Below are positions 16,401 through 53,260 of a stretch of 64,000 nt of DNA, piece by piece. Source of the stretch: Anagrus nilaparvatae (lineage: Eukaryota; Arthropoda; Insecta; Hymenoptera; Mymaridae); assembly GCA_022575985.1 (NCBI GenBank), contig JAKSXM010000266.1:1178001-1242000 (forward strand), read 5' to 3'. Position numbers and translations under genes: made by a program. Each line of letters opens with the position of its first letter. The first letter of the stretch is position 1. The notes under the pieces are model-generated. The model was given only the letters and a program-made list of their open reading frames with translations. It ran no database searches and was not told the origin of the DNA.

Positions 16401-19014
16401 CAGTACTGAGGAAAACTAAGATGTTTTTAGGAAAGTTTGTATTTTTCATAGTTGTAATCCGGCTATCGAAAATATCGCGATTATCTTATATCGGTTATTA
16501 AATGATAAAATTACTGAATCGACCCCCTGAAATGGAAATTGTATATTCTTTTTAAGGGAAAACATTACAATTTCATTATTATAACTATATAAGATGCTGA
16601 TAATTTATAGGAAGGTAAAAATAATAGAAGATACTTAGACATGGGAAAGAATATTACTCATTCTCGAGCGTATAAATATAAATGTTTTTAGGTTGGCGGC
16701 GTTAGCCGCCATCCTAAAAATATTTATATTTATATGCTAGAGGATGGGTAAATATTCTTTCCCACGTCTAAGTATGTTTTTTATAAATTAGTGATAAAGA
16801 ATTTATCATTATTTATACAGGTACACGTGTAACAAGATCAAATTTCTATAGGACTTTTAAATTCTGACAATAAAACGTCAACCCCATAGCACCGCTGTTA
16901 ATAATATACGTTCAATCCCCTCTCCTAAATATAAAAACTATGCCTAGAAAGCGATCGATAATTACATTCTTAACTTTTGAATAAGCGTGTTTTTGTACCT
17001 TTTTTTTTGTTTCAAAGCCGTGGAAGAATGTGAAAATTGAATAATAAAATATTATATGCTAATGCGCACGCTTATTACAGGATTTAAAAGTACTATAAGA
17101 ATATGATCTTTTCCACGTGTAGTTGTGTATAAATAATGATATAATTCTATGTTACTAATTTATAAATAAAAATACCTCATTTTTCTTTCTTTTGTTTAAA
17201 TATTGAAATTATTTTTCATAAAACCCATGAAATAACTAAGTGCCCGATAATATTTATTATAGTTCCGTACAATATAATATTGGCTGTATGTATATAATAA
17301 TAAATAAAGGATTAGTCCAAAATTTTTATGATTTTCAAATAGTATTAGGTGCTATTACAAATAGTACGTAAACAAATTCGGTAATAGTATTGAAAGAAGG
17401 CTATACATAAAAAGGGATTTTTTTACTTGATAAGTCTGTAGGGTATCAGACATTCGAGACTTTTTATTTCCTACAGTATTTATTAATATACCTATTAAAG
17501 GGGTGTGGTTACCCTAAAGTCGGGTCGTGTACACGAATTTTCTGTTTTTTTTGTCAAATTTTTGCAAGTCAGATTTCTTGTGAAGCCCGGAACTTCCCGA
17601 AAATCTCTACACTTGCATTTGTGAATCAAAAGCCTCCATTGATAACCCAAGCTCGACCCAACTCGAAGCAAGAAACCAGAAATTTCGTGTACCCGACCCG
17701 ACTTTCAGGTAACCGCACACCCTTAGCACCAGTATTCGATCCTATTGATAAAGAAATTTAAAATATTGAAATTTTCTATTTTATGATAATTTAAACAGGT
17801 ATTTATATAAGTTTTTATACTTAATTTAATATTATTTGATGCATCTTGTGAATAAAAATATAGTATTATGAATGATATATCACAAACAAAAAAAATAACA
17901 TTCAAATTTTCAGATAATTTTATATTAATAAATATCATTTATTAATAAATGAAGGTAAGTATTGATATCAATGAATTATTTATGTTATTTGTAGTTTATG
18001 CAATAACACAAAAATGTGTCTATAATATATGAATTTAACTATTCGTAATGTATATAATATAAGTAAGCACATATACCTTTTCATTCTTGCAGAATGGCGC
18101 CTAGAACGGGATTTTGTTTTGTTTTTTATTGTCCCCATTACTATAATTATTACCTATATATTTAAAAATATAAAAATAAACTAAAAAACTAAAAAACACA
18201 ATTTCTCAAACAATATTAAAAAGCAGTAAAATAAAAAACATTTACAATTCGCAAAAAATATAAGGCTTTTGGTATAGCTCTTTTCTATCTCAAGGCTAAA
18301 AAGCAAAAGCGAGGAGACTCAGTTCACCAGTCAAAACATATAATAAAAATTATCAAAACATGCGCGCGCATTTTAGAAGAATAAATAATAAAGCAAAAAC
18401 CCGCTTTTTAAAATTTATCAATATTATTGATGCAATAACCTTATGCAGGAGCTCTTGAGTACTTATACTTTTTTGTACAGTACAAAAATTAAACAAAAGG
18501 CAAAACAAAATATAAAATTTTTTTATCATAAACTTCTTTATTTTGTTAATTTATAATAAAAATTTATATTTAGAAATTAATCATTGGCTCTCAACACAGG
18601 CGTAAATATCGACGTCCGATATGCATTTTAAAAACTTATAAAGGACAACAATATGAGAAGAAATGTAAATGTAAGAATTACTTTAAAATTTACTTACCTA
18701 ATTTTAAATAAAGTAATATAAATTTAAATAACTGCACTGCAACATTTTTGTTAATATTTTTACGTTCCGAATAGTAATTTACCATTCATTTTATTATCAT
18801 GATATGAGTAAATATTTGAGCATATATTTTTATAATAAAAAAAAGTTGGTGTTAGTTTAATTTGTGCACTATATTGTTGAAAATTTATTCCATTACAGTG
18901 GGATGTTGGAAGAGAAAGAAAAAAGAACCAGTTATTCAAGATACTAATGCAATGCAAGCTTCCGATATGCATCAGCCAAGCCCTACTTATTTAGTACCAA
19001 AAAATAATGAATAG
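10490..19014 (+). CDS. Possible small three-exon gene, ~87-residue protein of unknown function
   Basis: I do not recognise the product. Three segments join in frame with proper splice signals. Exon 1 is 10,490-10,558 (MNLSLLNARADAILKNYLLE and three more residues, then GTAAGA). Exon 2 is 11,661-11,736 (after TTTCAG; ends in a run of Glu, then GTTGAA, a weak donor). Exon 3 is 18,899-19,014 (after TTACAG; begins Val-Gly-Cys-Trp-Lys-Arg-Lys-Lys-Lys and ends at TAG). Phases 0 and 1 agree. An acidic EEEE patch is followed by a basic KRKKK patch that could serve as a nuclear signal. A polyadenylation signal AATAAA is at 19,058-19,063. The second intron is over 7 kb and full of repeats, so further exons may exist. 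Support is splice logic only. Confidence 0.4.
11330..11520 (-). repeat. Satellite fragment in reverse orientation
   Basis: The segments CTTGAACGTAATACCTAATT and GGACGTGTAGTACCTAATTC are the reverse complement of the 155-bp satellite anchors (TTAGGTACTACGTCC). About one unit and a half, in the first-to-second intron region of the possible small gene. Confidence 0.6.
12370..12640 (+). repeat. Satellite terminal unit with TCCTCTATGAGGAACC module
   Basis: One satellite unit (TACATCCAAATTAAAAAA, GGTCTTAACGTCATAATGG) followed by ACATACATACACAC and the terminal module ending TCCTCTATGAGGAACC, the same order as at 6.4-6.74 kb and 14.4-14.75 kb. Confidence 0.65.
12640..13115 (+). repeat. Tandem repeat, ~190 bp unit, about 2.5 copies
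   Basis: Recurring TTTCACTCTAGAGTAAAATT-type starts with ATTGATTCTCTGCAATAT or ATTGATTGTCTACAATAT and TTTTATATATGAAAAAAC at about 12,645, 12,850 and 13,005. Not the same family as the 155-bp satellite. Confidence 0.55.
13490..14745 (+). repeat. Second 155-bp satellite array with terminal module
   Basis: Same family, orientation and trimeric organisation as 4,640-6,735: the TCTTAATTC-ATAAT variant recurs at about 13,650, 14,120 and 14,568. It ends with ACGTACGTACGTGTACACAC, a short CA tract and the AAAACCGGTTTTTTAGCTTC module. The two arrays share their 3' end, which suggests the array and its end move or were copied as a unit. Confidence 0.7.
14840..15335. mobile_element. Foldback element, ~490 bp
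   Basis: The left arm (ACATGTATTGTAACAC, GCTAATAGGTCCATTAAAT, AAAATGGTCTAGTTGCC) reads as the reverse complement of the right arm (GGCAACTGGACCGTTTT, GGACCTATCAGCAAAA, CTACAATACATGTGTT). Arms are about 190 bp and diverged by some 15 percent by eye. No coding capacity. Confidence 0.7.
15900..16210. repeat. Weak inverted repeat
   Basis: AACAGGCATTTTTAGGCCCATTTCG on the left mirrors CGAAATAGGCTTAAAAAAACGCC on the right, and ATATATAATATAATGG mirrors weakly. An older, diverged foldback element. Confidence 0.4.
16631..16779. mobile_element. Short palindromic element, ~150 bp
   Basis: ATACTTAGACATGGGAAAGA at the left is mirrored by TCTTTCCCACGTCTAAGTAT at the right. The arms meet at GGCGGC-GTTA-GCCGCC near 16,695. 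Almost no loop, so a strong hairpin is possible. Confidence 0.75.
16800..17145. mobile_element. Foldback MITE-like element, ~345 bp
   Basis: The left end TTTATCATTATTTATACAGG with ACACGTG and AAGATC is mirrored by the right end (GATCTTTTCCACGTGTAG, TGTATAAATAATGATA). Arms of about 75 bp flank a non-coding centre. Confidence 0.7.
17496..17725. mobile_element. Foldback MITE-like element, ~230 bp
   Basis: AAGGGGTGTGGTTACCCTAA and AGTCGGGTCGTGTACACGAA are mirrored by TTTCGTGTACCCGACCCGAC and TTTCAGGTAACCGCACACCC. Arms are about 55 bp. The GGTTAACC / GGTAACC end motif is shared loosely with the element in intron 7 of the DNMT3-like gene. Confidence 0.7.
17726..18898. other. Gene-free AT-rich stretch
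   Basis: Only chance short frames. A CTTGCAG followed by AATGGCGCC near 18,090 looks like a splice acceptor but no open exon follows it convincingly. Confidence 0.4.
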
Positions 19015-20627: not shown

Positions 20628-21948
20628 ATGCCTGACTACTGTTGTGTGTGTCAGGAATCTTCCCGAACACTAAAAAATGCAACTTTTCACAAGTAAGTGA
20701 TCAATAATTACAAGCAATAAACTAAATTATAAAAATATCAGAAATAAAAATTTTGCATAGAAATTAAGAAATTAAGAATTAAGATATTTTGCTGTTAAAT
20801 TCGTTTTAATGTATTTCATGTACTTAAAACTTATGTCATTTAATGCATTAAATTTTGGTCAAAATATCTGTGAATCACTGTATCATGATTATCCTAGTTA
20901 AAATTAAATTAAATTGAAGATTTACTTAAATAACGAAAAAAAAATATAAAACAGACCATTTGCATTTTTAACACAACAATGCTTTAATCAATAAAAATAA
21001 CTAAATAACTATTTTTCAATATATAGTTGAGACATTTTTCCTGCATGTAAAAATTATAAAATAGTTACTTTCTATTATTTTTATAAAATATAAATTATAA
21101 TAGAAATCATAACAACTGTAACAAATAGGTTATAATCTGCAAAATAATGTATATTTTAATAGAATTTTGACATTTGTTTTATGTACATCCATAACACTAT
21201 ATAATAATTAATAAACTATAATACAAACAACGTGTTACTTTTTTAAATAAAAAACAATGTATATAATCAGTTACTATAAAGATACTACAAATAAGAAAAC
21301 TGTCCATCCAATTAGGCAATGGTTCATGATATACTACGGAGTGTATCAAAAATACAGAGGCTCTAAGATCATCAGCTGATCATTAAAATGTAGATCAAGG
21401 TCAAGGAAGGTTTATGTATTTGCGGTTATAAATAGACTCATGAAGTAACCTGACCGATGCGATGTCAAATTGTTTAATAAATAACTAAGGCTGGAGGGTA
21501 AAAGAAATAAATTAACATTGAGAAGATAGGAAAATTATTTTTAAATATAAAAATATATTTTTATATAAATTTTTTAGAAAATTTTTGTATAAATTGTATA
21601 AATTTTTTAGAAAAACAGGTAACTTAAGTTAATTAAAAAGTTCCTTTATAGCAAAATATCTTTCTTGGGCTCTATTAAACATTTCTGTGCAAGATTTTTT
21701 CCATATTTAATCGTGTAATTTAATCAATATATGAATTTACAGAATCCCATTTAACAGAGGGTTTTTTGAAAAACAATGGGAGACGGTATTGACAGATTAT
21801 GGAATTACAGTTAAAGAAAAAATCAAAGTTTGATCGTACCATTTTGCAGCAAGTAGTATTACAGAAAAAATCATGAAAAATGGAACGAAAAGAAAGTTTG
21901 TGAATAATGGTGCTTTTCCTACAAATTTGTTTAAAGCCAAAAAAAAAG
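20628..21948 (+). other. THAP domain exons 1-2 of the DNMT3-like gene
   Basis: THAP is a C2CH zinc-coordinating DNA-binding domain also found in P-element transposases. Here MPDYCCVCQ supplies the first two ligands (Cys5, Cys8). FHKIPFN and the invariant Trp34 follow, then the CxxH position reads stop-Ser-Tyr-His-Phe (codons 52-56), and the conserved AVPT-type box reads AFPT (79-82). Spacing of 43 residues between the second and third ligand fits the family. Only the third Cys is replaced, by TGA; TGA differs from TGT or TGC by one base. Exon 1 ends at AA before GTAAGT (phase 2) and exon 2 ends before GTATTG (phase 1). All other diagnostic residues are kept, so the lesion is recent or the codon is tolerated. 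Confidence 0.85.
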
Positions 21949-24900
21949 GTATTGAAACTGTTTCAGAAATTTAAAAAATAAAATTTTATTGCAATGCGAT
22001 GCTAAATTATTATTTGTGGGCAGTAACCAACCATTTGATAATATTGTTAAAGCATGTTTTAATTTTGTTTATTTTATATTTTTTTGATTTGGTTTAAAAA
22101 TTATATATAATGTATATATATATATGTATAAAGTATATCTGCTTAAAACTTTTCCCAACAGTTTCGTGGTCATAAATTAGTTGAATTAAAGAAAGTATAA
22201 AAATTATCATAAAAATTACTGATCTAATATAAAAAAAAAATTGATTTTAAAATGATATAAATTTTGCTGAAAATTAATAATAGGGTTTAATTTTCATACC
22301 AATCCAACCAGAAAATTAAATTTTTTTTTTTTTTAATGAAGCAATCTTGTAGTGCATTTTAAAATATTAAAATTTTAATGTATAATGTACTATTTTTTAT
22401 ACTAGAAAAATAGATCAAAATCAGAAAGATTATGTAAATAATAATACCAATAAAAATAATCCCGGAGTAATGAATGATTCAATGCTGGTATCAAACCCTA
22501 CTTCTCTGAATAATATCGAAAGCCAAGAAATTCGTAATTCATACAAATCAGATAATCAGATTACAGAAAATGTAAAAATTTCAAATTTTGATGATTCCCT
22601 AAATCATCCACTAGCTAAAGATTCTCGTCAACATGAAAATGCAAAAACCGAAAATTTAGGTTTGTATCCAATTCTAAAAAAAATAACCACGTATTACTAC
22701 TCCCTGAATTTTCTGTCATCTCCTTCTGTAATCGGGTAAAAATGAGTAGTCCGAGGGAAACCTGATATCTTGCCGTCAACCCCCTGAATTTAGGGAGTTT
22801 TAACTCTCTGAGTCAGGCAGTAGAACTACGTGGTTATTTTTTTAGAGAAATACCACAAATGTAGAATTAATTTCAGTATATTAAAAATAGTTAAACATTT
22901 ATTTTTAACAAATGCAGTTGTAAGAATGATAAAAATGATTGGTTTTCAGCCATAACATATGAGACAAAGAAAAATGTGGATGGTTTGATTCAATTACCTG
23001 GAAAAATAAATTTTTATTTTTTAAACATTGAAAAGGTCAACACTATTGATTTATTTTATCTTGGTGGTCTTGATAAAAAAAAGCTCTTGAAAGAAATAGA
23101 AATGTTTTTTCTTGAAGACGAATTTTTGACTCCTGAAGATTATGAAAAAATTGATTGTATAGATAATTTGTGGATAAAAAAGGTGCGTTTGCAAGTCGTA
23201 AAATCTAAATACTGCTTGGATGAAACCCCAATAAATTTAACTGAAATACCTACTACAAGTTTTGATTATTCAGCTGGTACCTTGATTTGGGGTAAATTTC
23301 ACGGAACATGGCACCCAGGTAATTTATCTTAAAATAAATTATAAAATATTTACAAAATAATTAATGTATAAGAATATAATACTTTTTTACTTGTAGCCAT
23401 AATAATTAATAGCATTGATATAAATAGAGAATCTCTCAAAGAAGGACATCTATTAGTTATTTGGTTTGGTTACTCAATGTTTGCTGAGGTGAATAATTTG
23501 CATGACTAATTATTAGAAATTTTATACAAAATTTATAAAAATTAAATAATTAACTTTTTAGCTAGATAAAATATCCGAAGTTAAAAGCTTTAATGACTTT
23601 TCAAACACTTGCCTTGATAACAGTAAGCAAAAAAAGAAGCACAGAGTCAATGATAAAACTTTATTAAAGTTAATAAAGGTATAAATGAAAAGAAAAAAAT
23701 GGTTGTTTAATACTTAAAATGTTTTTTCATAATTTTTATCGATCATTGTAGCTATTAAAATTTCCATATCCAGAAGATAAGCATATGAAAAGTACAGAAA
23801 TAAAAAATTTGTTTTCATTACATAAAAAAAATTATTGTAATTTATAGACTATTTGTTTTAATTATAAAATATGAGTATGCGGTTAACCGACTTCTCAAGA
23901 ACCTGCGACCTGAAAGAACATTTTTTTTTCTTTAAGGTCAGGTCAGTTTTCGGATAAACCCGAAAAATTTAAGAGGTTTGAAGGTTCGGTTTTGAATCAG
24001 GAATTTCCCGGGCTTTATGATTCAATAAATGCTTTTTTTTCCTTTGTGTTAAAAAAAGAGTAAAAGTAGTAAAAAATAACATAATTTTTTTAAAAAATAT
24101 GAATTTATTTCCTGGAACTAATAAAAAAGCGTTTTCAAAAAATGCCCATAGAATTGTAAGGCCAGGAAAATTTCTGATTTAAAGCCTTGCCCTTAGACCT
24201 CTGAAGTAAAAAATTTGAGATCAACCAGACCCGAAAAGTAGGGTAACCACGTACGCTTATATTATAAACGTCAAAGTAAATTTTCATAAAATTTTTATTT
24301 TATAGTAAATAATTTAAAATTTATACCGTACCCAGAGGAAGTTAGCACAACATTAAGCAAATACAATAGCGATAATTTTGAAAATTCCCAATTAGATGAA
24401 ATTCCTTAAAAAAATAATAACGCAGAAAAGATAAATAAAATTTCATTTGAAGGTATAGTAAATCAAATATATAAGGAATATTTAAGAAACTTGATAATAT
24501 TTATATTATTAATTTTTATATTATTTGATATTTTATTACGACTTAAATTATTTAAGTATTACTTAAATTATTTTAATTAAGTAAAAAAAAATTTGTTTAT
24601 TCCTAAAATCAATATTTTTGTTATTTATAGTCAAAAAGAAAATACCAAAAAAAGAAACAAAAATAAGTCCAAGAATCCGAAAATTGAAAAAAGGAAAAAA
24701 GAAAATAAAAGTGTTATCCATCTATGATGGGATCGCAACAGGTAATCAAAAATACTATACATCAATGGATTTTTAAAATTATTCTTGCATGGTTTAATAG
24801 TAAATTTTTAACCAATGGAGCAAAAAAAAAAAGAATCGCCCAGATCACACGTTAATTAGCGATCTGGAATATTCTTTTTTGCTCCCATGAACAAAACGAA

Positions 24901-27900
24901 ATTTTCTTTCTCAGCGTGAAAAAAAACGCGTTTTTTTTCGATCTCGTTGCGGGTTCAAAAGTGTTTTCGACCCGCTCTTTTTGCAAATTATAAATAAATT
25001 ATTTGTTGATATAAAGGGGTCACTCTAACGAATATTAATATATAGTTTTACAGTATACGATACATAGTTTTACTGTAGTTATACTAAATAGTTTTACTGC
25101 ATAAATTAATTTGATTTATTTTTGCTAATAATGGTTTTAGCCATTAAAGTTTAGCCAAGGATATTGTAAAAACTTCATACCATGAGATTTTCATGGCATT
25201 AAAATCTATTGAATTTTCCGATAGGAAAATTAAAAAAAATTTTTATCAATCATTAAATTTTTTTATGGGTGAAAACAACTGCTAATTCTATTCTTCAGAT
25301 CCAGAAAATTTTATGGGTTTCCCAATAAGGCGGTTAGAAAATTCAAAAAAAATTTTTGTACAGAGTTTATTCTTTTTTCAAGAATGTTTTTATGGGTGTC
25401 AAAAAACTGATCCCGATTAAGATATTTTACTTTTCTATACCTATAAATTTTCTGATTTATCCAATATGGCGACTGAAAAATTCAAAAAAAATTTTTGAAT
25501 CGGTAAAATACCTTTTTTTTAAATCTTTTATGGCTGACTAAAATGGATAATTATAGTATTATTCAAACGGCAATTTCTTTTAACCAACCTTGAAACCACC
25601 TTAGAAATGAAAAAATCTTAATTTATATTTTATATATCTTTTCGGTCTGCTATATTTGGTTCCCTAATAATTATTCGGGAGTCTGTAAATTCAAATTTCA
25701 AACAGTAATTCATTTTAACAGACCCTGAAACCACCCTGGTAAATGTAAAAATCTGTATTTTTAATTTTTTTTTATGTGTTTGGTCCGCGATATTTGGTTC
25801 CCGAATAATCGTTTCAGATAATTATCATAGATTTCATAGCCAGGAAAAGATGAAAATCTCATAGCATGAGGTTTTTACAACCTCCCTGGCTAAACTTTAA
25901 TAGGTAAAACCATTACTAGCAAAAGTAAATCAAATTAAATAATGTAGTAAAATTTTTATAGTAAACTATGTAGTAAAAGTATATAGTCATTTTTGTTTAT
26001 TTAGGCATAGATAAGTATTAAAAAAACCTATTACTGGTTTCTATGTGTTCACTTACAATAGTTTTAACACCCTCGCTTTATCATGTAGGTACTATAGGTA
26101 TTTTTTTTCTACTAGGTACTCCCTGTATTACTGTAACATATTACTACCAAAGAATGTAAATACGAACAGCATAAACTTATATTCTTTGTTACTACTACTA
26201 TTAACTTAAAAAAATATAAGTCCATTTGACCCCTCCCCCCTAAGACGAAACTTTTTGCTCCTCCCCCCAAATGTAACCTTTTGACCCCAATTCTTAAAAC
26301 GTCGCTTTTTAACCCACCCTTCCTAAAAACGTTAATTCTTTTACCTCCCTCCCTAAATAAGGTAATTTTGACCCCCCCTGAGAGGGGATTTTATGAAGGT
26401 ACTTTCCCTATGTAACATGTTAAAAAATTAATGAAAATACTAAATAAATACCAATTCTGGTTAAGAACCACCAAATTAGTTTTATTGGCTATAACAGGAG
26501 CTGTTTAGGACCAAGAGTTCTAAAAATTTTATGATTTTTCTATCTTTATGTTAACAAAATGTGGGGAAATTTTGAGCTAGAACCGTTGACTTGATCTACC
26601 TATCAATATTGCTATTTTGTCTCAGAAACACTAAAAATGAAAATTATTTTTTTTTTAAATAAATAGTTTCTAATTAACATATTTTTTACACACTATTAAG
26701 GCTATGTTGCATTAAAGGAAAAAGGAAATGATATTGATAAATATCATGCATGTGAAATAAATCATGAAGCTCGATTGGTTGCAATAGCAAATCATGGTGA
26801 AAACATAGAATATTTAAATACAAATGATGTATTAGAAATTACCGAAGAAGATATAAAACAAATTTGCCCAATCGATTTACTTCTAGGAGGAAGTCCGTGT
26901 AATCAATTAAGTGGAGCAAATGCAACAAGGCAAGGATTAGAAGGTAAAACAAATTAATAAATATTTAAAATTTTTATATGAGTCTTTCTTTGCCAAAACA
27001 GCGATGGTTGCCAGGGGGGTTCGTCGGATCGGACTCAAATTTTCCGGGAAATTCCGGAAAATTGGAAAATGCGTTTTAAGAAAAATCGTAATATCTCATT
27101 TGCCGCAAAAATTGGAATTAGTATAAACTTGGTAATTTGTGACAATATCTTTACTTGACCATAACTCGGTTAATTTTCATCGAAATGAGCATTTTTTTTT
27201 TCAACTACTTTTTCCCTGGCTATTTGATTCTAAAAGAAAAAAAGTCAATTTATGCAACCCTTTATGGTTTATTACATATGTAAAGATCAAGAATGTAAAA
27301 ATAATCTAAAACAAACTAAAATCCATCCTTAATGGCCGAAACAGAAAATATTTTATGGCTAGTTCAATGGGATTTCGTTTGAAGAAAATTTAAAAAAAAA
27401 TTTTTATTTTTTTAATTTTTCAAAAACAAAATGGCGGCAAAAGAGTTATTTCGGTTTTTCCAAAAACACGTTTTCCCATTTTCCGGAGTTTTCCGGGGTT
27501 TTCCCGAAAAACTAAAGGCAGATATGGATTTACAGCAGGTTTCCCAACATATATAATGTTTGAGATTCTTTTTTCAAGCTGTTTTTTATTATTTTTTAGC
27601 AATTTTCCTAAAAACACCAACGCTAATCGATAGCCACCCAATGAGTTTGATTGGCCATAACTCGGGTTGCTTAAGACCTAGAGGGCTAAAAATTTCAGGA
27701 TTTTCCTGTCTTAGCGGTATAAAAACATGGGGAAAATTTTAGGCCGATCCGACGACCCCCCTGGCAACCATTGCTGTTTTGGCAAAGAAAGACTCATATA
27801 ATAAAACCAAATATATTAATGATTAAATTACAGGAGAGGCGTTAGCTTTGGTTGAAAAATTTGCTCAAATAAAAAAATGGATCAATAAATATAATCCCAG

Positions 27901-28903
27901 AGATCGAAAACTTTATGTTCTTTTTGAAAATGTGAAGTCTATGAAAGATGTTGATAAGAAAAAAATAAATGAGTAAGTTATAAATAAAAAAATTAAAAAA
28001 AACTGATAACCGGTTTGTTTGAACACAACCAAAACGCATGGAGCAGGTTTAATTATAGCTAAGGGCTAGGTGTAATGCATAAATGTTACGCAACATTACA
28101 ATAAAATTTGCAATTTTTATAATTTGTAATTAATCAGCTTTGCTAGATGTTAAAATTCTAAATCCAAACTATTCTGAATCCCTAAACGCTTATTATTCTA
28201 AGGTTCCTAAATCGAAAATATTGTAACTCCCTTTACCTGATTTATTACGAATCCATAAACCTTAATTATTATAATTCTCAAATCGAAATTATTCAAAATC
28301 TATAAACCTGGATTATCTGGATTAACTCCCTGCCTATAGACTTGTTCCATGTTAAATAAGGAATTATTTTCTAAATATGCTTGCATACCTAATTCAAATT
28401 ATTCAAATTTATGGCAGCATTATGGGTCAAAAACCAAGATACATCGATTCAGTTTTATACTCGGCAATGCACAGAAAACGGTTGTATTGGTGTAACATAG
28501 AAGAAATTCCTATAAGAAAGGAATATAAGATATTGCAACAATATTTAGATGATAATAGTCAAAGAATCGCTCTTTTCGAAAAAATAAATTGTATTACCGG
28601 TAACAGTAACTCTTACTTCCAGGGTAAAATAATAATAATGGCTCATTTACGGATAAAAAATTTGCATATAAATAATTTTTATTTTTAGGAGCAAGGAAGA
28701 AATTCCCCATAAAATTTAATGGAGAAGGAGATAAACCGTGGATCACAGAAATTGAAAATCTTTTTGGCTTTTCAAAACATTATACCGATTACGGTAACTT
28801 GTCAATTACCAAGCGGAGAAAATTATTGGGTGCATCCTGGCACATAGGAACAATAAGATACCTATTAAGACCATTGAAAACTAAATTTAGAACAAAAATT
28901 TGA
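20628..28903 (+). CDS. THAP-PWWP-DNMT3-type DNA cytosine-5 methyltransferase (13 exons, two in-frame stops)
   Basis: De novo DNA cytosine-5 methyltransferase of the DNMT3 family with an unexpected N-terminal THAP zinc-finger domain. Exons: 20628-20692, 21743-21948, 22414-22659, 22950-23318, 23397-23488, 23562-23678, 23752-23836, 24306-24452, 24631-24741, 26701-26943, 27834-27972, 28418-28623, 28689-28903. Every junction has GT and AG, phases agree and the total is 2,241 nt (746 aa). Order: THAP 1-88, Asn-rich linker to 172, unknown ~110-aa part, PWWP ~282-330, Lys-rich linker with no Cys-rich ADD domain, methyltransferase ~468-746. The start suits THAP, which usually sits at the N-terminus. 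Odd points: TGA at 21831 (codon 52) and TAA at 24407 (codon 428). The catalytic domain itself is unbroken. It is either a recent pseudogene or is expressed through another start and exon skipping. It would act in the nucleus on chromatin. Confidence 0.82.
22674..22845. mobile_element. Foldback MITE in intron 3 of the DNMT3-like gene
   Basis: CTAAAAAAAATAACCACGTA at the left is mirrored by TACGTGGTTATTTTTTTAG at the right. An inner part with CCCTGAATTT is mirrored by AAATTTAGGG-like sequence. About 172 bp of the 290-bp intron. Confidence 0.75.
22950..23678 (+). other. PWWP domain exons 4-6 of the DNMT3-like gene
   Basis: Exon 4 ends in LIWGKFHGTWHPG and exon 5 carries VIWFGYSMFAE, the two hallmark strands of a DNMT3 PWWP (family forms: VWGK-GF-SWWP and WFGD-KFSE). 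Exon 6 (LDKISEVKSFNDFS) matches the helix that follows. PWWP domains read methylated Lys36 of histone H3 through an aromatic cage. Here SWWP is shortened to TWHP, and the Asp after WFG, which in mammalian DNMT3A is part of the cage and mutated in disease, is Tyr. Histone reading may be weakened or changed. The ~110 residues before the PWWP in exon 4 match nothing I know. Confidence 0.8.
23863..24268. mobile_element. Foldback MITE filling intron 7 of the DNMT3-like gene
   Basis: ATTATAAAATATGAGTATGC then GGTTAACCGACTTCTC at the left is mirrored by GAAAAGTAGGGTAACCACG and TACGCTTATATTATAAACG. It occupies about 406 of the 469 intron bases. Without it the intron would be near 63 bp, like introns 4, 5, 6 and 12. 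Confidence 0.7.
24305..24452 (+). other. Symmetric linker exon 8 carrying a premature TAA
   Basis: Exon 24306-24452 (147 nt, phase 1 to phase 1) encodes LKFIPYPEEVSTTLSKYN, then a TAA at 24407-24409, then an open tail to the donor GTATAG. Because its length is a multiple of three and both ends share a phase, joining exon 7 directly to exon 9 keeps the frame and removes the stop. Exon 7 contains a similar LLKFPYPEDKHMKSTEIKN segment, so exons 7 and 8 may be duplicates of one another. Confidence 0.6.
24818..24882. repeat. Short hairpin in intron 9
   Basis: AGCAAAAAAAAAAAGAATCG and CCAGATC are mirrored by GATCTGGAATATTCTTTTTT and GCT, giving a stem of about 27 bp. An A-to-T imbalance in the arms leaves some mismatches. 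Confidence 0.5.
25080..25980. mobile_element. Foldback element in intron 9 of the DNMT3-like gene
   Basis: Left arm (ATTTGATTTATTTTTGCTAA, TGGTTTTAGCCATTAAAGTT, TAGCCAAGG, CCATGAGATTTTCATGG) is mirrored by the right arm (GATGAAAATCTCATAGCATG, CCTGGCTAAACTTTAATAGG, TAAAACCATTACTAGCAAAA). Arms are about 120-150 bp and the centre contains diverged direct repeats with AAATTCAAAAAAAATTTTTG. Confidence 0.65.
26220..26392 (+). repeat. C-rich degenerate tandem repeat in intron 9
   Basis: Four or five loosely repeated units of 35-40 bp of the type TTTTGACCCC-CCTCCC-TAAGACG or TAAAACGTC. This strand-biased pyrimidine tract stands out from the AT-rich background. Confidence 0.5.
26985..27800. mobile_element. 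Foldback element filling intron 10 of the DNMT3-like gene, TA target site
   Basis: TATGAGTCTTTCTTTGCCAA and ACAGCGATGGTTGCCAGGGG are mirrored by CCCCTGGCAACCATTGCTGT and TTGGCAAAGAAAGACTCATA, with TA on both outer sides. It covers 816 of the 890 intron bases. The intron would be only about 72 bp without it and one TA. Internal sequence repeats fragments also seen near 26,470-26,600, an older relic of the same family. Confidence 0.8.
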
Positions 28904-30785: not shown

Positions 30786-31811
30786 TTATAAAATTTTGTT
30801 TGAAATAATTTCATATTTAATTTTTTCCCTGAAGTATGGCATATCAGTTTGCGAGAAATCAAAAATTTTGTTGCTGCAGATGTATTCTGCGTAGACACAC
30901 ATAAAAACTCCACAGTCACTGCCGTTTTTTTGCTGTGGTATATTAGTCACAGCTCCGTAACGCCAACCGTTAAAATTAAAATTTTTCATATTTTGTTTAT
31001 GGTAATATTCATCTGCAATATATTCTTGTAATGTATGTAAACAATTAATATTTTTTGATCCCAAACTGTCATAGTATGCAAAAAATTTATTTCTAAAATC
31101 AACAACGGCTAAACTCCAGTGGTTATTGTTGATGTGTATTGGGACCAAGAACAAATCCTTATCAAAAATATCTAATTTTTTAGTCCACTTTTTAAGTGAA
31201 TCAAAGCCTTTTTCCACAAGTTTGGGATAAAAGAAAGAATTCATTGCATGCACTTTTGGGAATCCTGGTTTGGTACCACGGTCAATTAATAAATTAATAT
31301 AATAATTTATTACATTATCATGTAGCCAGTTTAAATTATCCAAAAGTTGAAGGTCAGCTTTACTAATCCTTAGACCTAAATACTCGGTGATAAATGCTTC
31401 AGGTGTTTTACCCCGTAAAACTGATTTTATGTGATTCCTCATTTTAAGTGGCAATGTTTTTACCAACGTGCCCTCCGAGGTGCCCTCACTTGCATCAAAT
31501 TTAGTCTTTTTCTGTTCAACTGGTTTTGAATTATTATTATAAATTTCACATTGTTGTTTTCTAATGATGGTATTGTGAGTAGAAATTTTTTTATTTCGTA
31601 CTTTTGTCTTTGAAGTTTTCGTGGGATGAGGGTAGTTAAAAAAAATTTCATCTAAAAATTGCCTGCCGTAAAAATTATCATTAGCATAAAAGGAATTTTT
31701 ATTTCCTTTTCTTAGTCTCTTGCAGCACAAAGGCATGTTATTTTGGGCGGTGGAAACTGTAGCCAAACTATGAAACTTTTTTTTTGTTGTTGAAATTTTA
31801 ACGCTATTCAT
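30786..31811 (-). CDS. SUMO-specific cysteine protease, SENP1/Ulp1 type
   Basis: A 341-residue intact single-exon protein. The C-terminal ~200 residues form a C48-family Ulp1 protease, which matures SUMO precursors and removes SUMO from targets. The catalytic set is complete: His231 in NNNHWSLAVVDFR, Asp248 in FAYYDSLG, Gln294 in NIPQQKNGSDCGVF and nucleophile Cys300. The 17-residue His-Asp spacing equals that of human SENP1, and NGWRYGAV and MPYFREKIKYEI match the rest of the fold. The ~135-residue N-terminal part is basic and Asn-rich, much shorter than in SENP1, and holds KKK and KRLRK patches that could be nuclear signals. The absence of introns suggests a retrocopy, though the frame is fully preserved. 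It is convergent with the DNMT3-like gene and divergent from the gene at 32.7 kb. Confidence 0.93.
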   Translation of the reverse strand: MNSVKISTTKKKFHSLATVSTAQNNMPLCCKRLRKGNKNSFYANDNFYGRQFLDEIFFNYPHPTKTSKTKVRNKKISTHNTIIRKQQCEIYNNNSKPVEQKKTKFDASEGTSEGTLVKTLPLKMRNHIKSVLRGKTPEAFITEYLGLRISKADLQLLDNLNWLHDNVINYYINLLIDRGTKPGFPKVHAMNSFFYPKLVEKGFDSLKKWTKKLDIFDKDLFLVPIHINNNHWSLAVVDFRNKFFAYYDSLGSKNINCLHTLQEYIADEYYHKQNMKNFNFNGWRYGAVTNIPQQKNGSDCGVFMCVYAEYICSNKIFDFSQTDMPYFREKIKYEIISNKIL

Positions 31812-32655
31812 ATTTTTAAACGTTATTTTACTTGTATATAGAAGGTAAAATATCTGACAATAACTACTTTTGTAAATTAAGAATCCTAAAATCAGAGAAA
31901 AATATTCAGTTTTTTCTATACAAAACTGCAGTATGTAAACAAAACAAGAAAATAATAATTACGTTATCTTATTTTTTTAAATAATAAGAAACATTTTTCT
32001 GTCAAGAGAAGATTGAAGCCGAAAAAATGTGGTATTTATTATGTCTTTGAAAAAATCTTATATAAAGTCAAATCTAAAATATTTTTATTTCTAAAATATA
32101 ATAAATAATAGAAACTTTGAACTTAGGACACTATTTTCTGTGAACTATTAAGTATGGCATTAAAAAACTATTTATATTATATAGATGGCAGAATAATAAT
32201 GTGCGCCATGCTGATAGTGAAGTATCTTATTATTCGGCAACCCTGTCGGCAAGTAAGCACTTCCATGCGTTCATAAATAATAAGTCTCTTAAAAACAGTC
32301 ATCATCAAAGTACGTGTAACTTTTTTAATATATTAGACTAAAAAAAAGTTATAGACAATATAAACATTCAATTAAATTCATTACATTTCTTTCTTTCAGA
32401 AATTTCTTAATTTTTTTTGCATGTACTTAATGAGTTAAATTGAATGTTTATAATTTCTATAACTGTTTTTAACTTAAATTATTGAGGTTATGTTTAGCGA
32501 TTAGTGAAACAATTTCTTTTTTGCAAACTTTTATTTCTGTCTTCTAATGTACATTGCGTTTAAGTATATTTCAAATTTTTTTAAACATTTTTTTCCTTTA
32601 ATGTCAGGATCATATAAATGTCAAGACGTGGAAAAAAAAATATAAGAATCAAAAA
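31812..32655. promoter_or_regulatory. Intergenic region between divergent genes, candidate two-way promoter
   Basis: About 840 bp separates the start codons of the minus-strand SENP gene and the plus-strand Tyr/Gln/Pro-rich gene. It contains a hairpin at 32,338-32,465 (AACATTCAATTAAATTCATT mirrored by TTAAATTGAATGTTTATAAT, with TTATAGACAATATAAAC mirrored loosely). No clear TATA box; the role as promoter follows from position only. Confidence 0.35.
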
Positions 32656-34379: not shown

Positions 34380-35290
34380 CTATAAATTCAGCCTTACATC
34401 CAAATAACCTAAGGATGTCGTATAAAAAACAATGCTTTGAGCCTTACACCCACATAACCTAACAAAGTGGTTTATAATAAAAAAACGACACGTCAATCAT
34501 TACACTAACATAACCTAATAAGAAGTGTATAATAAAGAAACGACACGTCAAGCATTACACTAGCGTGACCTAAGGAAGTATTCTTAAGAAAAAAACGACA
34601 CGTCAAGCCTTACACTAACATAACCTAAGGAAGTAGGTTATAATAAAATACGACACGTCAAGCCTTACAGTAGCGTAACCTAAGGAAGTAGGCTATAATA
34701 AAAAACGATACGTCAAGCCTTACAGTAGCGTAACCTAAGGAAGTAGGCTATAATAAAGAACGACACGTCAAGCCTTGCAGTAGCGTAACTTAAGGAAGTG
34801 GACTATATTAAAAAACAACACGTCAAGCCTTACAGTAGCGTAACCTAAGGAAGTAGGTTATAATAAAAAACGACACGTCAAGCTTTACAGGAGCGTAACC
34901 TAAGGAAGCAGGCTATAATAAAATAACGACACGTCAAGCCTTACAGTAGCGTAACCTAAGGAAGTAGGCTATAATAAAGAACGACACGTCAAGCCTTACA
35001 GTAGCGTAACCTAAGGAAGTAGGTTATAATATAAAACGACACGTCAAGCTTTACAGGAGCGTAACCTAAGGAAGCAGGCTATAATAAAATAACGACACGT
35101 CAAGCCTTACTGTAGCGTAACCTAAGGAAGTAGGCTATAATAAAGAACGACACATCAAGCCTTACAGTAGCGTAACCTAAGGAAGTAGGTTATAATAAAA
35201 AACGACACGTCAAGCTTTACAGGAGCGTAACCTAAGGAAGCAGGCTATAATAAAATAACGACACGTCAAGCCTTACAGTAGCGTATAATA
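34380..35290 (+). repeat. 55-bp satellite array, left arm of FB1
   Basis: About 16 units of CGACACGTCAAGCCTTACAG, TAGCGTAACCTAAGGAAGTA and GGCTATAATAAA. Units toward the outer end are more diverged (CACTAACATAACC), and those toward the centre are nearly identical. Confidence 0.9.
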
Positions 35291-35829
35291 AAAATATATA
35301 ATACAGAAAATATAGTAAATTTAGTAACTAGAGTGCAGACTTAGTTGGTTATTTAAATTTAATATTAAATTTTGAAAAAGAAAATGTCTGAAATTTACTA
35401 AAATTTGTTTATAGGAAACTCTGGAAATTAAGGAAATTTGGTTGAAACACTAAAAAAGTACTGGAAAATTTTAAAAAATAGTCTGGAAAGTCAGGGAATT
35501 TTAAAACTTCACTTCCGTGTCCACCCTGACTATACCATTGCATTAGGTTATGTTGGTGTAACTCTTGTGCTAAATTTTTGTATTAATCTAATGCTTTCAA
35601 AAATTATAAAAAATATCTAAATTTTTATTATTTTTGGACGTAATACATAATACTTTTCAATGAAAGTAATAATTTCAGAAAACTCGGTTTTAATAGATTT
35701 ATTGGATATGGTAATTAAGGATTTGAAAAATTTTTTAATAAAGTTTTTATCACCAAAAAAAAACTCGAAAAAAACTGACCTGATACTTAATTATTTGAAA
35801 AGTTTTGTCTCCAAATTTTACGTTGTGTT

Positions 35830-36530
35830 GATGTAAGTCTTGACGTGTCATTTTTTATCATAACCTACTTCCTTAGGTTAAGTTACTGTAAGGCATGACG
35901 TGTCATTTTTATTATAGCCTACTTCCTTAGGTTACGCTACTGTAAGGTTTGACGTGTCGTTTTTTATTATAGTCTACTTCCTCAGGTTATGTTAGTGTAA
36001 GGCTAAACGTGTTGTTTTTCATTACAGTTTACTTCCTTAGGTTATGTTAGTGTAATGCTTTACGTGTCGTTTTTTTCTTATAGAATACTTCCTTAGGTTA
36101 AGTTACTGTAAGGCTTGACGTGTCATTATTATTATAGCCTACTTCCTTAGGTTATGTTACTGTAAGGCTTGACGTGTCGTTTTTTATTATAACCTACTTC
36201 CTTAGGTTACGCTACTGTAAGGTTTGACGTGTTGTTTTTTATTATAGTCTACTTCCTTAGGTTATGTTAGTGTAAGGCTTGACGTTTCATTTTTTATTTT
36301 AGTCTCTTTCCTTAGGTTACGCTAGTGTAAGGCATGATGAATCGTTCCTTTTTTTATTTCCTTAGGTTATGTTAGTGTAAGGTTTAGATGATTTTAGTGT
36401 AATTCTTGACGTATCGTTTCTTTAGTATAGACTTCTTTATTAGGTTATGTTAGTGCAATGATTGACGTGTCGTTTTTTATTATAAACCACTTTCTTAGGT
36501 TATTTGGATGTAAGGCTGAACGTATTGTAT
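35830..36530 (-). repeat. 55-bp satellite array, right arm of FB1, inverted
   Basis: About 12 units in reverse orientation (CTTCCTTAGGTTACGCTACT, GTAAGGCTTGACGTGTCGTT). Copy number differs from the left arm, so the arms changed length independently. The ~500 bp between the arrays includes a piece of the 155-bp satellite family (GGACGTAATACATAATAC near 35,635). Confidence 0.9.
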
Positions 36531-43556: not shown

Positions 43557-46500
43557 AATTGAACTGCCGGATGTAAGAACAGGTTATAAGGTTTTTATTG
43601 ATTAAATATTTAAAAAAAAAAAAAATTCGCGAATTTCAATTATTTTTTTTTGGATATCGATACAAATATTTATTTTAGTCAGGATAGCGAAGTCAAAAAT
43701 ATAAAAAAAAATTTTCCCTTATTGTTATTGACAAATTACTAATTGTTATTCCGATTTTTAAAACCGCCCAATTTGAAAAAATTTCTCGCTCTATCACTAA
43801 TGAAAACCAGTTTTTACTTTTTTAAAAAAAATTTTTCGCTTTAATTTTTTTCATACATTATTCTTACACATGGGCGTAAAAAAAATTAATTTAAAAGAAT
43901 TTTGGGTCGGAAATATTAATTAGGCAAATTTTTGTTACGATGATTTTCACTATAACCAAAACTTTAACTTAAAACCAAAAAAGTAGCGAAGGAATTTTAA
44001 GTAGGAAAAAACTTGAATCGAGGGAAAAATCAAGAAACACTTCAAAATTATTTATAAACAAAAATTTTTTTATTTGGAACAATAATAATCAATAAACAAT
44101 TAAATTAAACAATGCGTGTTATCAAACGCGTGCGAGAAAGAAATACACAAGACAGAGCATGGTTGAAAGGTACTAAGGTGTGTTCAACCCAAGAAAAAAT
44201 TTGAATAAATTAAAAAATTTACGGCGAAAGACTAGAAAGTTGCCTGGCTAAAGTATCATGTAGTAGAGGAACCCATACCAGTTAAGGTAAAAATTTATAA
44301 AAATAGTTTTATTTTTTTTTTTCTGTTTGGAAGTTAAGACTAATACAAAAACTCTTTTTCCGGGTTTTCAATCAAGGAATTTATAGTTTCTTTTCAAATT
44401 CTAGGATCTGAAACCCGAAAATCTTCTCTTTCCATGTTTTAAATCATGAAAATTAATTGCTCGTTTATTGTGAGTATAATTCCTAGATTTAAAACCAGGA
44501 ATCGAATTATATCTTTTTTATAATTTAGAAAAATGGTCTATTTACCCACAATATGCAACTTTTGTTTATTTTTAGCAGTATTCTGGGGATTTTTATTAAA
44601 TATTCATATATTCAGGGTTAATTAACAAATAATATGGTACGATTATCCACAATAGAAAACTTTTGGTAACTTTTATTTCGGGGTTTCCTTAGTTATATGT
44701 TCTTAGGCTCACTTGACACTAACATAATATCCAATTTTACTAGACATGGACCAATCACCCACAAAACAAAAAAACGACATGTCAAGCCTTACACTAACAT
44801 AACCTAAGGAAGTAGACAATAATAAAAAACTACACGTCAAGCCTTACAGTAGCGTAACCTAAGGAAATAGGCTATAATAAAATAACGACATGTCAAGCAT
44901 TACACTAACATAACCTAAGGAAATTGGCTATAATAAAAGAACGACTCGTCAAGCCTTACAGTAGCGTAACATAAGGAAGTGGACTATAATAAAAAACGAC
45001 ACGTCAAGCTTTTAGTAACGTAACCTAAGGAAGTAGACTATAATAAAAAACGACACGTCAAGCCTTACAGTAACGTAACCTAAGGAAGTGGACTATATTA
45101 AAAAACGACACGTCAAGCCTTACAGTAGCGTAGCCTAAGGAAGTAGACTATATTAAAAAACGACACGTCAAGCCTTACAGTAGCGTAACCTAAGGAAGTG
45201 GACTATAATAAAAAACGACACGTCAAGCCTTACAGTAGCGTAACTTAAGGAAGTGGACTATAATAAAAAACGACACGTCAAGCCTTACAGTAGCGTAACC
45301 TAAGGAAATGGACTATATTAAAAAACGACACGTCAAGCCTTACAGTAGCGTAACTTAAGGAAGTGGACTATAATAAAAAACGACACGTCAAGCCTTACAG
45401 TAGCGTAACCTAAGAAAAAGGACTATATTAAAAAACGACACGTCAAGCCTTACAGTAGCGTGACTTAAGGAAGTGGACTATATTAAAAAACGACAAATCA
45501 AGCCTTACACTAACATAACCTAAGGAAGTGGACTATATTAAAAAACGACACGTCAAGCCTCACAGTAGCGTAACTTAAGGAAGTGGACTATATTAAAAAA
45601 CGACACGTCAAGCCTTACAGTAACGTAACCTAAGGAAGTAGACTATAATACAAAACGACACGTGAAGCCTTACAGTAGCGTAACCTAAAGAAATGGACTA
45701 TATTAAAAAACGACACGTCAAGCCTTACAGTAGCGTAACTTAAGGAAGTGGACTATATTAAAAAACGACACGTCAAGCCTTACAGTAGCGTAACTTAAGT
45801 AAGTGGACTATATTAAAAAACGACACGTTAAGTCTTACAGTAACGTAACCTAAGGAAGTAGACTATAATACAAAACGACACGTCAAGCCTTACAGTAGCG
45901 TAACCTAAGGAAGTGGACTATAATAAAAAACGACACGTGAAGCCTTACAGTAGCGTAACCTAAAGAAGTGGACTATAATAAAAAACGACACGTGAAGCCT
46001 TACAGTAGCATAACCTAAGGAAATGGACAATATTAAAAAACGACATGTCAAGCCTTACAGTAGCGTAACTTAAGGAAGTGGACTATATTAAAAAACGACA
46101 CGTCAAGCCTTGCAGTAGCGTAACTTAAGGAAGTGGACTATATTAAAAAACAACACGTCAAGCCTTACACTAACGTAACTTAAGGAAGTGGACTATATTA
46201 AAAAACGACACGTCAAGCCTTACAGTAGCGTAACCTAGGGAAGTGGACTATTTTAAAAAACGACACGTCAAGCCTTACAGTAACGTAACCTAAGGAAGTA
46301 GACTATAACACAAAACGACACGTCAAGCCTTACAGTAGCGTAACCTAAGGAAGTGGACTATAATAAAAAACGACACGTCAAGCCTTACAGTAGCGTAACC
46401 TAAGGAAGTGGACTATATTAAAAAACGACACGTCAAGCTTTAAAGTAACGTAACCTAAGGAAATGGACAATATTAAAAAACGACATGTCAAGCCTTACAG

Positions 46501-48092
46501 TAGCGTAACTTAAGGAAGTGGACTATATTAAAAAACGACACGTCAAGCCTTGCAGTAGCGTAACTTAAGGAAGTGGACTATATTAAAAAACAACACGTCA
46601 AGCCTTACACTAACGTAACCTAAGGAAGTGGACTATATTAAAAAACGACACGTCAAGCCTTACAGTAGCGTAACCTAGGGAAGTGGACTATTTTAAAAAA
46701 CGACACGTCAAGCCTTACAGTAACGTAACCTAAGGAAGTAGACTATAACACAAAACGACACGTCAAGCCTTACAGTAGCGTAACCTAAGGAAGTGGACTA
46801 TAATAAAAAACGACACGTCAAGCCTTACAGTAGCGTAACTTAAGGAAGTGGACTATATTAAAAAACGACACGTCAAGCTTTAAAGTAACGTAACCTAAGG
46901 AAATTGACAATATTAAAAAACGACATGTCAAGCCTTACAGTAGCGTAACTTAAGGAAGTGGACTATATTAAAAAACGACACGTCAAGCCTTGCAGTAGCG
47001 TAACTTAAGGAAGTGGACTATATTAAAAAACAACACGTCAAGCCTTACACTAACGTAACCTAAGGAAGTGGACTATATTAAAAAACGACACGTCAAGCCT
47101 TACAGTAGCGTAACCTAGGGAAGTGGACTATTTTAAAAAACGACACGTCAAGCCTTACAGTAACGTAACCTAAGGAAGTAGACTATAACACAAAACGACA
47201 CGTCAAGCCTTACAGTAGCGTAACCTAAGGAAGTGGACTATAATAAAAAACGACACGTCAAGCCTTACAGTAGCGTAACCTAAGGAAGTGGACTATATTA
47301 AAAAACGACACGTCAAGCTTTAAAGTAACGTAACCTAAGGAAGTAGACTATAACACAAAACGACACGTCAAGCCTTACAGTAGCGTAACCTAAGGAAGTG
47401 GACTATAATAATAAACGACACGTCAAGCCTTACAGTAGCGTAACCTAAGGAAATGGACAATATTAAAAAAGGACACGTCAAGCCTTACGTGCTCTGCTTT
47501 GTGTATTTCTTTCTCGCGCGCGTTTGATAACACGCATTATTTAATTTAATTGTTTATTGATTATTATTGTTCCAAATAAAAAAATTTTTGTTGATATATA
47601 ATTTTGAAGTGTTTCTTGATTTTTCCCTCGATTCAAGTTTTTTCCTACTTAAAATTCCTTTGATACTTTTTTGGTTTTAAGTTAAAGTTTTGGTTATAGT
47701 GAAAATCATCGTAACAAAAATTTGCCTAATTAATATTTCCGACCCGAAATTCTTTTAAATTAATTTTTTTTACGCCTATGTGTGAAAATAATGTATGAAA
47801 AAAATTATAGCGAAAAAGTTTTTTTAAAAAAGTAAAAACTGGTTCAGATTACTTGAGATAGAGCGAGAAATTTTTCCAAATTGTGTAGTTTTAAAAATCG
47901 GAATAAAAATTATTTATTTGTTAATAACAATAAGGAGAATTTTTTTTTATATTTTTGACTTCGCTATCCTGACCAAAATAAATATTTGTATCGATATCAA
48001 AAAAAAAATTATTGAAATTCGCGAATTTTTTTTTTTTAAATATTTAATCAATAAAAACTTTATAACCTGTTCTTACATCTGGCAGTTCAATT
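43557..48092. mobile_element. Foldback element FB2, ~4.5 kb, ~600-bp arms around a satellite
   Basis: AATTGAACTGCCGGATGTAA is mirrored by TTACATCTGGCAGTTCAATT at the other end. Arms continue through ATATCGATACAAATATTTAT to the inner borders (TGCGTGTTATCAAACGCG and CGCGTTTGATAACACGCA). Between the arms lies a 2.7-kb array of the 55-bp satellite in one direction only. No transposase seen. Confidence 0.88.
44762..47490 (+). repeat. 55-bp satellite array with 440-bp higher-order repeat
   Basis: About 49 units of AACGACACGTCAAGCCTTAC, AGTAGCGTAACCTAAGGAAG, TGGACTATATTAAAA. Unit variants recur at exactly 440 bp (eight units): TAACCTAGGG at 46231, 46671 and 47111; ACAATATTAAAAAACGACATG with its flank near 46021, 46461 and 46901. 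So the distal 1.3 kb consists of three near-identical eight-unit blocks. Confidence 0.92.
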
Positions 48093-49224: not shown

Positions 49225-50265
49225 TCTCTGATTGCCCCGTGAATTAAGCTTGCGGATACCTTCTTGCTAAGCATTCAGGAGAACCCTGCTTGCTAAGCAT
49301 TGAGGAAAAGCCTGATTGCTAAGCATTCAGGAAATTTCTGATTGCTAAGCATTCAGGAAAACCCTGATTGCTAAGCATTGAGGAAAAGCCTGATTGCTAA
49401 GCATTGAGGAAAAGCCTGATTGCTAAGCATTCAGGAAATCCTGTTTGCCAAGAATTTAGGAAATTCCTGCTTGCTAAGTTTTCAAAAAATCCCTGATTGC
49501 TAATCATTCAGGAAATCCTATTTGCTAAGCATTCAGGAAATCCTATTTGCTAAGCATTCAGGAAAACCCTGATTGCTAAGCATTGAGGAAAATCCTGATT
49601 GCTAAGCACTCAGGAGATCCCTGCTTGCTAAGCATTGAGGAAAAGCTTGATTGCTAAGCATTGAGGATAACCCTGGTTGCTAAGCATTGAGAAAAAGCCT
49701 GATTACTAAGCATTCAGGAGAACCCTGCTTGCTAAGCATTCAGGAAATTTCTGATTGCTAAGCATTCAGGAAATCCTGTTTGCTAAGTTTTCAAAAAATC
49801 CCTGATTGCTAAGCGTTTAAGAAATCCTATTTGCTAAGCATTCAAGAAAACCCTGATTGCTAAGCATTCAGGAGAACCCTGTTTGTTAAGTTTTCAAGAA
49901 ATCCCTGATTGCTAAGCATTCAGGAAATCCTATTTGCTAAGCATTCAGGAAAACCCTGATTGCTAAGCATTCAGGAAATCCTGTTTGCTAAGCATTCAGG
50001 AAATTTCTAATTGCTAAGCATTGAGGAAAATCCTGATTGCTAAGCACCCAGGAGAACACTGCTTGCTAAGCATTGAGGAAAACCCTGGTTGCTAAGCATT
50101 GAGGAAAAGCCTGATTGCTAAGCATTCAGGAGAACCCTGCTAGCTAAGCATTCAAGAAAATCCTGATTGCTAAGCATTAAGGAAATCCTGGTTGCTAAGC
50201 ATTCAAGAAATTCTTGATAGCTAAGCATTGAGGAAAAGCCTGATTGCTAAGCATTCAGGAGAAAG
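49225..50265 (+). repeat. 25-26-bp tandem repeat, left arm of FB3
   Basis: About 40 units of GATTGCTAAGCATTGAGGAA plus AAGCCT, alternating with CATTCAGGAAATCCT and CATTCAGGAGAACCCT variants. Units contain TTGCTAAGCA and differ at the same few positions, giving several interleaved subtypes. Confidence 0.9.
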
Positions 50266-52944: not shown

Positions 52945-53260
52945 AAAATGAATGCTTAGCAAACAGGATTTCCTGAATGCTTAGCAATCAGGCTTTTCCT
53001 CAATGCTTAGCAAGCAGGGTTCTCCTGAATGCTTAGCGATCAGGCTTTTCCTCAATGCTTAGCAATCAGAAATTTTCTGAATGCTTAGCAAACAGGATTT
53101 CCTGAATGCTTAGCAATCAGGCTTTTCCTCAATGCTTAGCAATCAGGGTTTTCCTGAATGCTTAGCAATCAGAAATTTCCTGAATGCTTAGCAATCAGGC
53201 TTTTCCTCAATGCTTAGCAAGCAGGGTTCTCCTGAATGCTTAGCAAGAAGGTATCCGCAA
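52945..53260 (-). repeat. 25-26-bp tandem repeat, right arm of FB3, inverted
   Basis: About 12 units in reverse orientation (AATGCTTAGCAATCAGG, TTTTCCTC). The left arm has about 40 units, so the array has contracted or expanded in one arm after the palindrome formed. Confidence 0.9.

Follow-up and report, generated by a model that had tools for sequence, protein, structure and literature searches.

What directs a de novo DNA methyltransferase to one sequence and not another has long been asked, and the question is raised directly by a gene on the + strand, at 20628-28903, of a 64,000-nucleotide stretch of the Anagrus nilaparvatae assembly (C281:1178001-1242000, G+C 28.4%), called the window from here on. 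Known DNMT3 enzymes are described as steered by histone marks through their PWWP and ADD domains (PMC8821070; this and all other papers are cited from excerpts), and the initial annotation had singled out this gene as one odd protein, with a THAP zinc finger ahead of PWWP and a DNMT3-type catalytic domain, and without ADD. We found that the window gene belongs to a large family in which some members do have ADD, and our best reading of these sequences is that a DNMT3-type family has swapped histone reading for what is likely DNA-sequence targeting. To the whole of this proposal, namely a multigene family uniting THAP, PWWP and a DNMT3-type methyltransferase, with THAP likely guiding the choice of DNA target and with the window copy broken by stop codons, we assign a probability of roughly 0.62.

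The window gene has 13 predicted exons, separated by GT-AG introns and with phases compatible across all joins, as had been described; the continuity of the proposed single frame did not hold, being broken by TGA at 21831 and TAA at 24407, and the 746 codons once given were not reproduced, our own 13-exon join having 732. The profile search suggested at that time for the spliced exons (THAP, PWWP, DNMT3) matched all three. In a Pfam scan of the exon pieces the + strand order was THAP (PF05485, 26.8 bits against a cut-off of 23.9, with X substituted at the stop), PWWP (PF00855, 30.3 against 25.6) and DNA_methylase (PF00145, 44.4 against 22), which bears out the claimed order, and the absence of ADD was borne out as well, no ADD profile matching in the exon pieces (the introns lay outside the scan). 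The best PDB match of the catalytic part is DNMT3B (278 residues aligned, expectation value E 9.9e-60), with DNMT3A also aligning, and this domain retains DGIATG, GGSPCN, FENV and HRxR, which we take to be motifs I, IV, VI and VIII, respectively; the THAP domain aligned weakly to THAP1 2ko0 (E 0.043). The exon set and its domain homology are not due to chance, because long open exons are rare in random frames (among 4000 random frames drawn from the window, 0.85%, 0.4% and 0.78% had open stretches reaching the length of exons 3, 4 and 10, respectively) and because the homology scores lie far above noise.

As written, the window copy reads as a non-working fusion, because TGA occupies the third ligand of the C2CH zinc finger and TAA interrupts exon 8. 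Skipping exon 8 preserves the phase and leaves 683 codons with the TGA still inside, and no route around this TGA that preserves the zinc finger was found in the window copy; a 22-base mini-intron removing it was judged too short. Selenocysteine at the zinc ligand was considered as well and rejected: an Rfam scan of the window gave no family at gathering score, and therefore no selenocysteine insertion sequence at that threshold, and decay fits the TGA better because a second locus, C373, shares it together with the exon 8 TAA. C373, which could be either a recent duplicate or the other allele of the window copy, is 99.6-99.8% identical to it over three blocks totalling 9.4 kb.

Besides the window itself, a whole-genome search with the protein of exons 3-7 found only C373 and C337, and it is in the latter that the fusion appears intact. 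C337 is 74-86% identical to the window in aligned blocks, intron sequence included, its THAP domain has the zinc-ligand cysteine, its exon 8 is open, and exons 2-13 all read open in the frame expected for them and join into 707 residues without a stop; with exon 1 and its start codon, found upstream, the full predicted protein has 728 residues (Pfam bits: THAP 28.0, PWWP 40.9, DNA_methylase 46.6). A more distant paralogue, C175, about 55% identical to the window in the catalytic domain, yields a predicted model with ten exons and 858 residues, free of internal stops, in which THAP (30.7 bits), PWWP (36.9 bits) and a catalytic part strongly matching DNMT3B (E 1.2e-61) were found, and its intron phases match those of the window at shared junctions except that between THAP and the linker. 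The DNMT3-type catalytic domain is thus confirmed in the window and C175, and PWWP in the window, C337 and C175. Both paralogues keep DGIATG or DGITTG, PCN, FENV and HRxR, and neither model matched ADD at E 0.1 in Pfam, so that the architecture seen in the window, without ADD, is open in two paralogues of the same genome. In a third locus, C1:17.55 (C1 below), the same parts as in C175 were found in open exon pieces; a complete model was abandoned, since its exon 5-6 junction had no in-phase solution, and an extra exon is likely. In the models of C337, C175 and C1, all with the zinc ligands present, THAP is joined to the linker by a phase 2 junction, which scores 12.9 in C175 and 18.9 in C1. 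No transposase family followed THAP by Pfam in the window pieces, C337 or C175. The homology between the window and C337 continues upstream of the gene, at 18065-18908, and therefore no sharp element end is seen on the 5' side; a transposon unit was rejected on this ground.

The codon comparison of the window with C337 (710 codons, values averaging both branches) indicates that THAP and the methyltransferase were both under purifying selection, because the ratio of nonsynonymous to synonymous rates (dN/dS) was 0.13 in THAP (Fisher p 6e-10) and 0.19 in the catalytic domain (p 1e-18). It was 0.32 in exons 4-6 (p 3e-5), 0.35 in exons 7-8 and 0.60 in the linker, where neutrality was not rejected. 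Since these values are averages over both branches, THAP would have been maintained at the protein level through much of the period after the duplication.

Across the genome searched (488.7 Mb, 393 contigs), the catalytic domain gave 83 exon matches, grouped into 35 clusters of DNMT3-like exons, some of them near copies of each other. Sixteen clusters were read with some upstream DNA, and 11 of these have an upstream THAP exon in the same orientation (the window, C373, C337, C39, C175, C1:17.55, C95:2.17, C79:17.61, C79:15.40, C79:14.67 and C342:1.32). This is not an unbiased rate, because C39, C79:15.40, C342:1.32 and C95:2.17 were read for a THAP match already placed there; among the nine clusters read without any prior hint, outside the window, C373 and C337, THAP was present in four (C175, C1:17.55, C79:17.61 and C79:14.67). 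The family THAP profile was built from six of the 11 loci, which match it by construction, and a twelfth THAP, at C79:15.63, was placed by coordinates alone. No THAP exon was found in the upstream DNA read at C365, C342:13.18, C234, C95:4.04 and C113:8.95, with C95:4.04 and C113:8.95 appearing truncated or interrupted. A generic THAP search placed THAP 3.1-5.8 kb upstream of five clusters, always on the same strand, when about 0.03 would be expected by chance within 6.5 kb (0.35 if the genome held 1500 THAPs); two of these five look like near copies, and a sixth match lies 18.9 kb from a methyltransferase cluster. THAP genes or elements are very numerous, with at least 147 genome matches, a lower bound from the 150 of 300 candidates scored. 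By eye, the DNMT3-like copy at C234:362000-370500 stands beside a PIF1/Helitron-like helicase reading frame, and that at C113:8948100-8956000 has a reverse transcriptase frame like that of a long interspersed nuclear element upstream. A viral origin, for which IMG/VR gave one 33% identical stretch, and a plasmid origin, for which two bacterial C5-methyltransferases at about 31% were found, were both rejected.

The members that hold both THAP and ADD bear on the order of events. In C79:17.61, a THAP exon (27.2 bits) is accompanied by a weak first PWWP (16.1 bits, below the cut-off), a second PWWP (33.0 bits), ADD matches of 18.4 and 26.6 bits (E 0.002 and 7e-6), both below their cut-offs (27 for the latter), and, following ADD, a methyltransferase with altered motifs; by eye, pieces of THAP, PWWP, an ADD-like domain and a methyltransferase can be made out in C79:14.67 and C79:15.40 as well. 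The scores of C365 are 14.3 bits for a weak first PWWP, 41.5 for a second PWWP and 48.7 for ADD, and its methyltransferase has R at the position of DNMT3A R836. The tree has 12 rows, among them five THAP members that lack ADD; these five group as a single clade (support 100/98), C365 groups with C79:14.67 and C79:17.61 (98/97), and C79:15.40 stands apart in a poorly supported part. The window clade has neither ADD nor the second, canonical PWWP, and its remaining PWWP is without the cage aspartate. THAP likely joined before ADD was lost, because some members hold both; the simplest reading would be that a DNMT3 already equipped with two PWWPs and ADD acquired THAP, giving a THAP-PWWP1-PWWP2-ADD-methyltransferase ancestor, and that the window clade later lost PWWP2 and ADD.

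In the mechanism that we propose, THAP would bind a short DNA sequence and bring the enzyme there, and the enzyme, by its predicted activity, would methylate cytosines at the sites chosen by THAP. Binding of DNA has been reported for the THAP domain of the Galileo transposase (PMC3688188). In DNMT3A and DNMT3B, ADD exerts an autoinhibition that lasts until this domain contacts the H3 tail (PMC11401227), and an enzyme without ADD would presumably be released from H3-tail control as well as targeted by THAP. In the clade, PWWP keeps W263 of DNMT3B and has Tyr (window) or Thr (C175) in place of D266; as W263 and D266 are cage residues (PMC7615734, PMC3119473), reading of methylated lysine 36 of histone H3 is likely weaker. 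DNMT3A R836 and DNMT3B K777 set CpG or flank preference (PMC7335073); at their position in the recognition loop the window, C337 and C1 have Asn and C175 has Ser, and therefore site preference likely differs. There are two strong DNMT1-RFD loci, C147:19573224 and 20061214, and one weak at C196, so that the maintenance enzyme is likely present, and DNMT1 could maintain the marks once set by the fusion enzyme; DNMT1 itself looks duplicated. The observed/expected CpG ratio is 0.70 in the exons vs. 1.02 in the window, the neighbouring SENP frame being equal to the exons, and this depletion fits gene-body methylation weakly. More tentatively, and with a good deal of doubt, the whole family could be a one-protein analogue of the KRAB zinc-finger system, in which diversifying THAP domains built into the DNMT3s would read DNA, histone control would be removed, and each member would directly methylate a sequence of its own, perhaps a transposon.

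Several observations weigh against this proposal. Complete open models number only two (C337 and C175), C175 gave no PF00145 match at E 0.1, and all exon joins, including that of THAP to the remainder, are predicted splicing. The exon 2-exon 3 join is the weakest of the window copy: acceptor 22414, required for the frame, scores -3.25, so that the THAP-linker junction comes to about -0.8 (donor 2.42), on a smaller matrix than the C175 scoring; acceptor 22406, the homologue of the acceptor that the C337 model uses, has a score of -5.82, and its phase does not fit in the window. An AATAAA lies at 21977, downstream of exon 2, and a short THAP transcript could therefore end there. THAP scores are modest. 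Damage is widespread: the window and C373 have two stops each, C39 has a stop in the FENV exon, and C95:2.17, C342:1.32 and C79:14.67 are damaged as well. C79:17.61 has an altered motif I, and PCN is replaced by PCE in C79:17.61 and C79:14.67 and by PCS, in motif IV, in C1. C365, which we tried as a THAP-bearing locus, has no THAP exon in the 4.2 kb upstream of its PWWP exon, and yet it nests beside two THAP members in the tree; several independent THAP joinings are therefore possible. Finally, the changes that separate the window from C373 number 6.5 nonsynonymous against 1.5 synonymous, the pattern expected without constraint, and because constraint is seen against C337 but not against C373, the window copy likely decayed late.

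Four other explanations have to be weighed against these data. DNMT3L acts as an adaptor or inactive partner, and the fused protein might do the same, with its THAP serving protein contacts instead of DNA targeting. The Asn or Ser at the R836 position, the replaced PWWP aspartate, and the PCS and PCE variants of C1 and the two C79 members would suit such a role, which we nevertheless consider unlikely, given that C337 and C175 retain their whole set of catalytic motifs and that a transposase THAP domain does bind DNA (PMC3688188). Slightly less likely still, the family could consist for the most part of duplicated DNA in decay, propagated by mobile elements or segmental duplication, its THAP forms having no present function; the many damaged copies, the mobile-element-like sequence seen by eye beside the C234 and C113 copies, and the lack of constraint between the window and C373 all point that way, against which stand the complete and open C337 and C175 with their catalytic motifs and the purifying selection on THAP, PWWP and methyltransferase between the window and C337. 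We think it improbable that the window copy remains functional as an enzyme without THAP, starting in exon 3 and skipping exon 8: such a skip is compatible with the phase and leaves the exons beyond THAP open, but a new start and exon skipping would both be required, and the changes relative to C373 show no constraint. Least probable of all is that the THAP exons form a short gene of their own, or are a remnant, upstream of a DNMT3-like gene starting at the exon 3 ATG, since, despite the TGA inside the window THAP, the poor exon 3 acceptor and the AATAAA, the same order and strand recur at 11 of the 16 loci read, the phase 2 join recurs in C337, C175 and C1 with the high scores given above for the latter two, the five upstream THAPs far exceed chance, and THAP has a dN/dS of only 0.13.

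The exons are listed below together with other features of the window, among them a piece with DUF1759, a domain of BEL/Pao gag proteins; this piece and the AT-rich composition would by themselves point to an insect.

Features of the window (positions counted from its first nucleotide)
Feature	Position	Strand	Description
Exon 1	20628..20692	+	Beginning of THAP (C-x2-C), with start codon; donor in phase 2; homologous first exons in C337, C175, C1
Exon 2	21743..21948	+	Remainder of THAP; donor phase 1 in window, phase 2 in C337 and C175
In-frame TGA	21831..21833	+	Third THAP zinc-ligand position; common to C373, absent from C337
Exon 3	22414..22659	+	Low-complexity linker; acceptor uncertain (22406 or 22414); in-frame ATG inside
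Exon 4	22950..23318	+	Stretch without domain match, then first half of PWWP
Exon 5	23397..23488	+	Second half of PWWP; Tyr at DNMT3B D266 position
Exon 6	23562..23678	+	End of PWWP region
Exon 7	23752..23791	+	Short; weak donor
Exon 8	24306..24452	+	In-frame TAA at 24407-24409 in window; open in C337
Exon 9	24631..24741	+	Basic stretch, motif I (DGIATG)
Inverted repeats, intron 9	25061-25194 and 25850-25985		Perhaps ends of a non-autonomous element
Exon 10	26701..26943	+	Region reaching and passing catalytic PCN
Palindromic insert, intron 10	~26983-27800		Second such insert; seems to fill this range (by eye)
Exon 11	27834..27972	+	FENV motif
Exon 12	28418..28623	+	Motif VIII and target-recognition loop (CITGNSNS)
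Exon 13	28689..28903	+	C-terminal part of catalytic domain, stop codon
SUMO protease frame	30786-31958	-	Open, intronless, Ulp1/SENP type; 390 codons stop to stop; PF02902 E 2.3e-40
55-bp satellite	34455-35285; 35818-36382; 44769-47488		Three arrays, the second inverted
26-bp tandem repeat	49264-50260; 52949-53246		Two arrays in opposite orientation
DUF1759 piece	62138-62818	+	E 3.1e-27

To our knowledge, this family would be the largest DNMT3 expansion in one animal. DNMT3 is described as the DNMT most easily lost in the group of the host (PMC8821070, PMC7257214), and in a survey of 138 Ecdysozoa the full DNMT3 set is taken to be PWWP together with ADD (PMC8821070). By the rule in the excerpt of that survey, the window gene, judged from its sequence, classifies as a DNMT3-type enzyme and as a partial DNMT3 candidate, not a canonical one, because no ADD match was found in the window pieces, C337 or C175. 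In the open-access literature, covered by titles and the starts of abstracts, no description of a THAP and DNMT3 architecture was found among the papers listed, in line with the initial annotation, which knew of no such protein; the excerpt of a paper on THAP expansion in the sea cucumber contains no occurrence of "methyltransferase" (PMC13228809).

Compared with known systems, the window gene shares with DNMT3A and DNMT3B a complete catalytic domain, including motifs I, IV, VI and VIII, and a PWWP that precedes it, and differs from them by its N-terminal THAP, by having no ADD that we could find and only one PWWP, with W263 kept and D266 replaced, and by Asn at the R836/K777 position. With THAP proteins and the P-element and Galileo transposases it shares the N-terminal C2CH THAP zinc finger, which in the window, C337 and C175 is followed by a methyltransferase, with no transposase domain found by Pfam. 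The retrotransposon DNMTs of dinoflagellates and charophytes (PMC5890265) are likewise multiplied methyltransferases with some copies beside mobile DNA, whereas the copies of the present family keep their introns and no transposon gene was found within the THAP-methyltransferase unit of the window, C337 or C175. Mouse DNMT3C is also a duplicated DNMT3 that dropped a histone-reading domain, and one that acts on young transposons (PMC11401227); DNMT3C is without PWWP, and the window gene instead is without ADD and has THAP. If our reading is true, a fusion of a zinc finger to a DNMT3, repeated and diversified in one genome, would give direct sequence targeting and be a natural counterpart of engineered epigenome editors.

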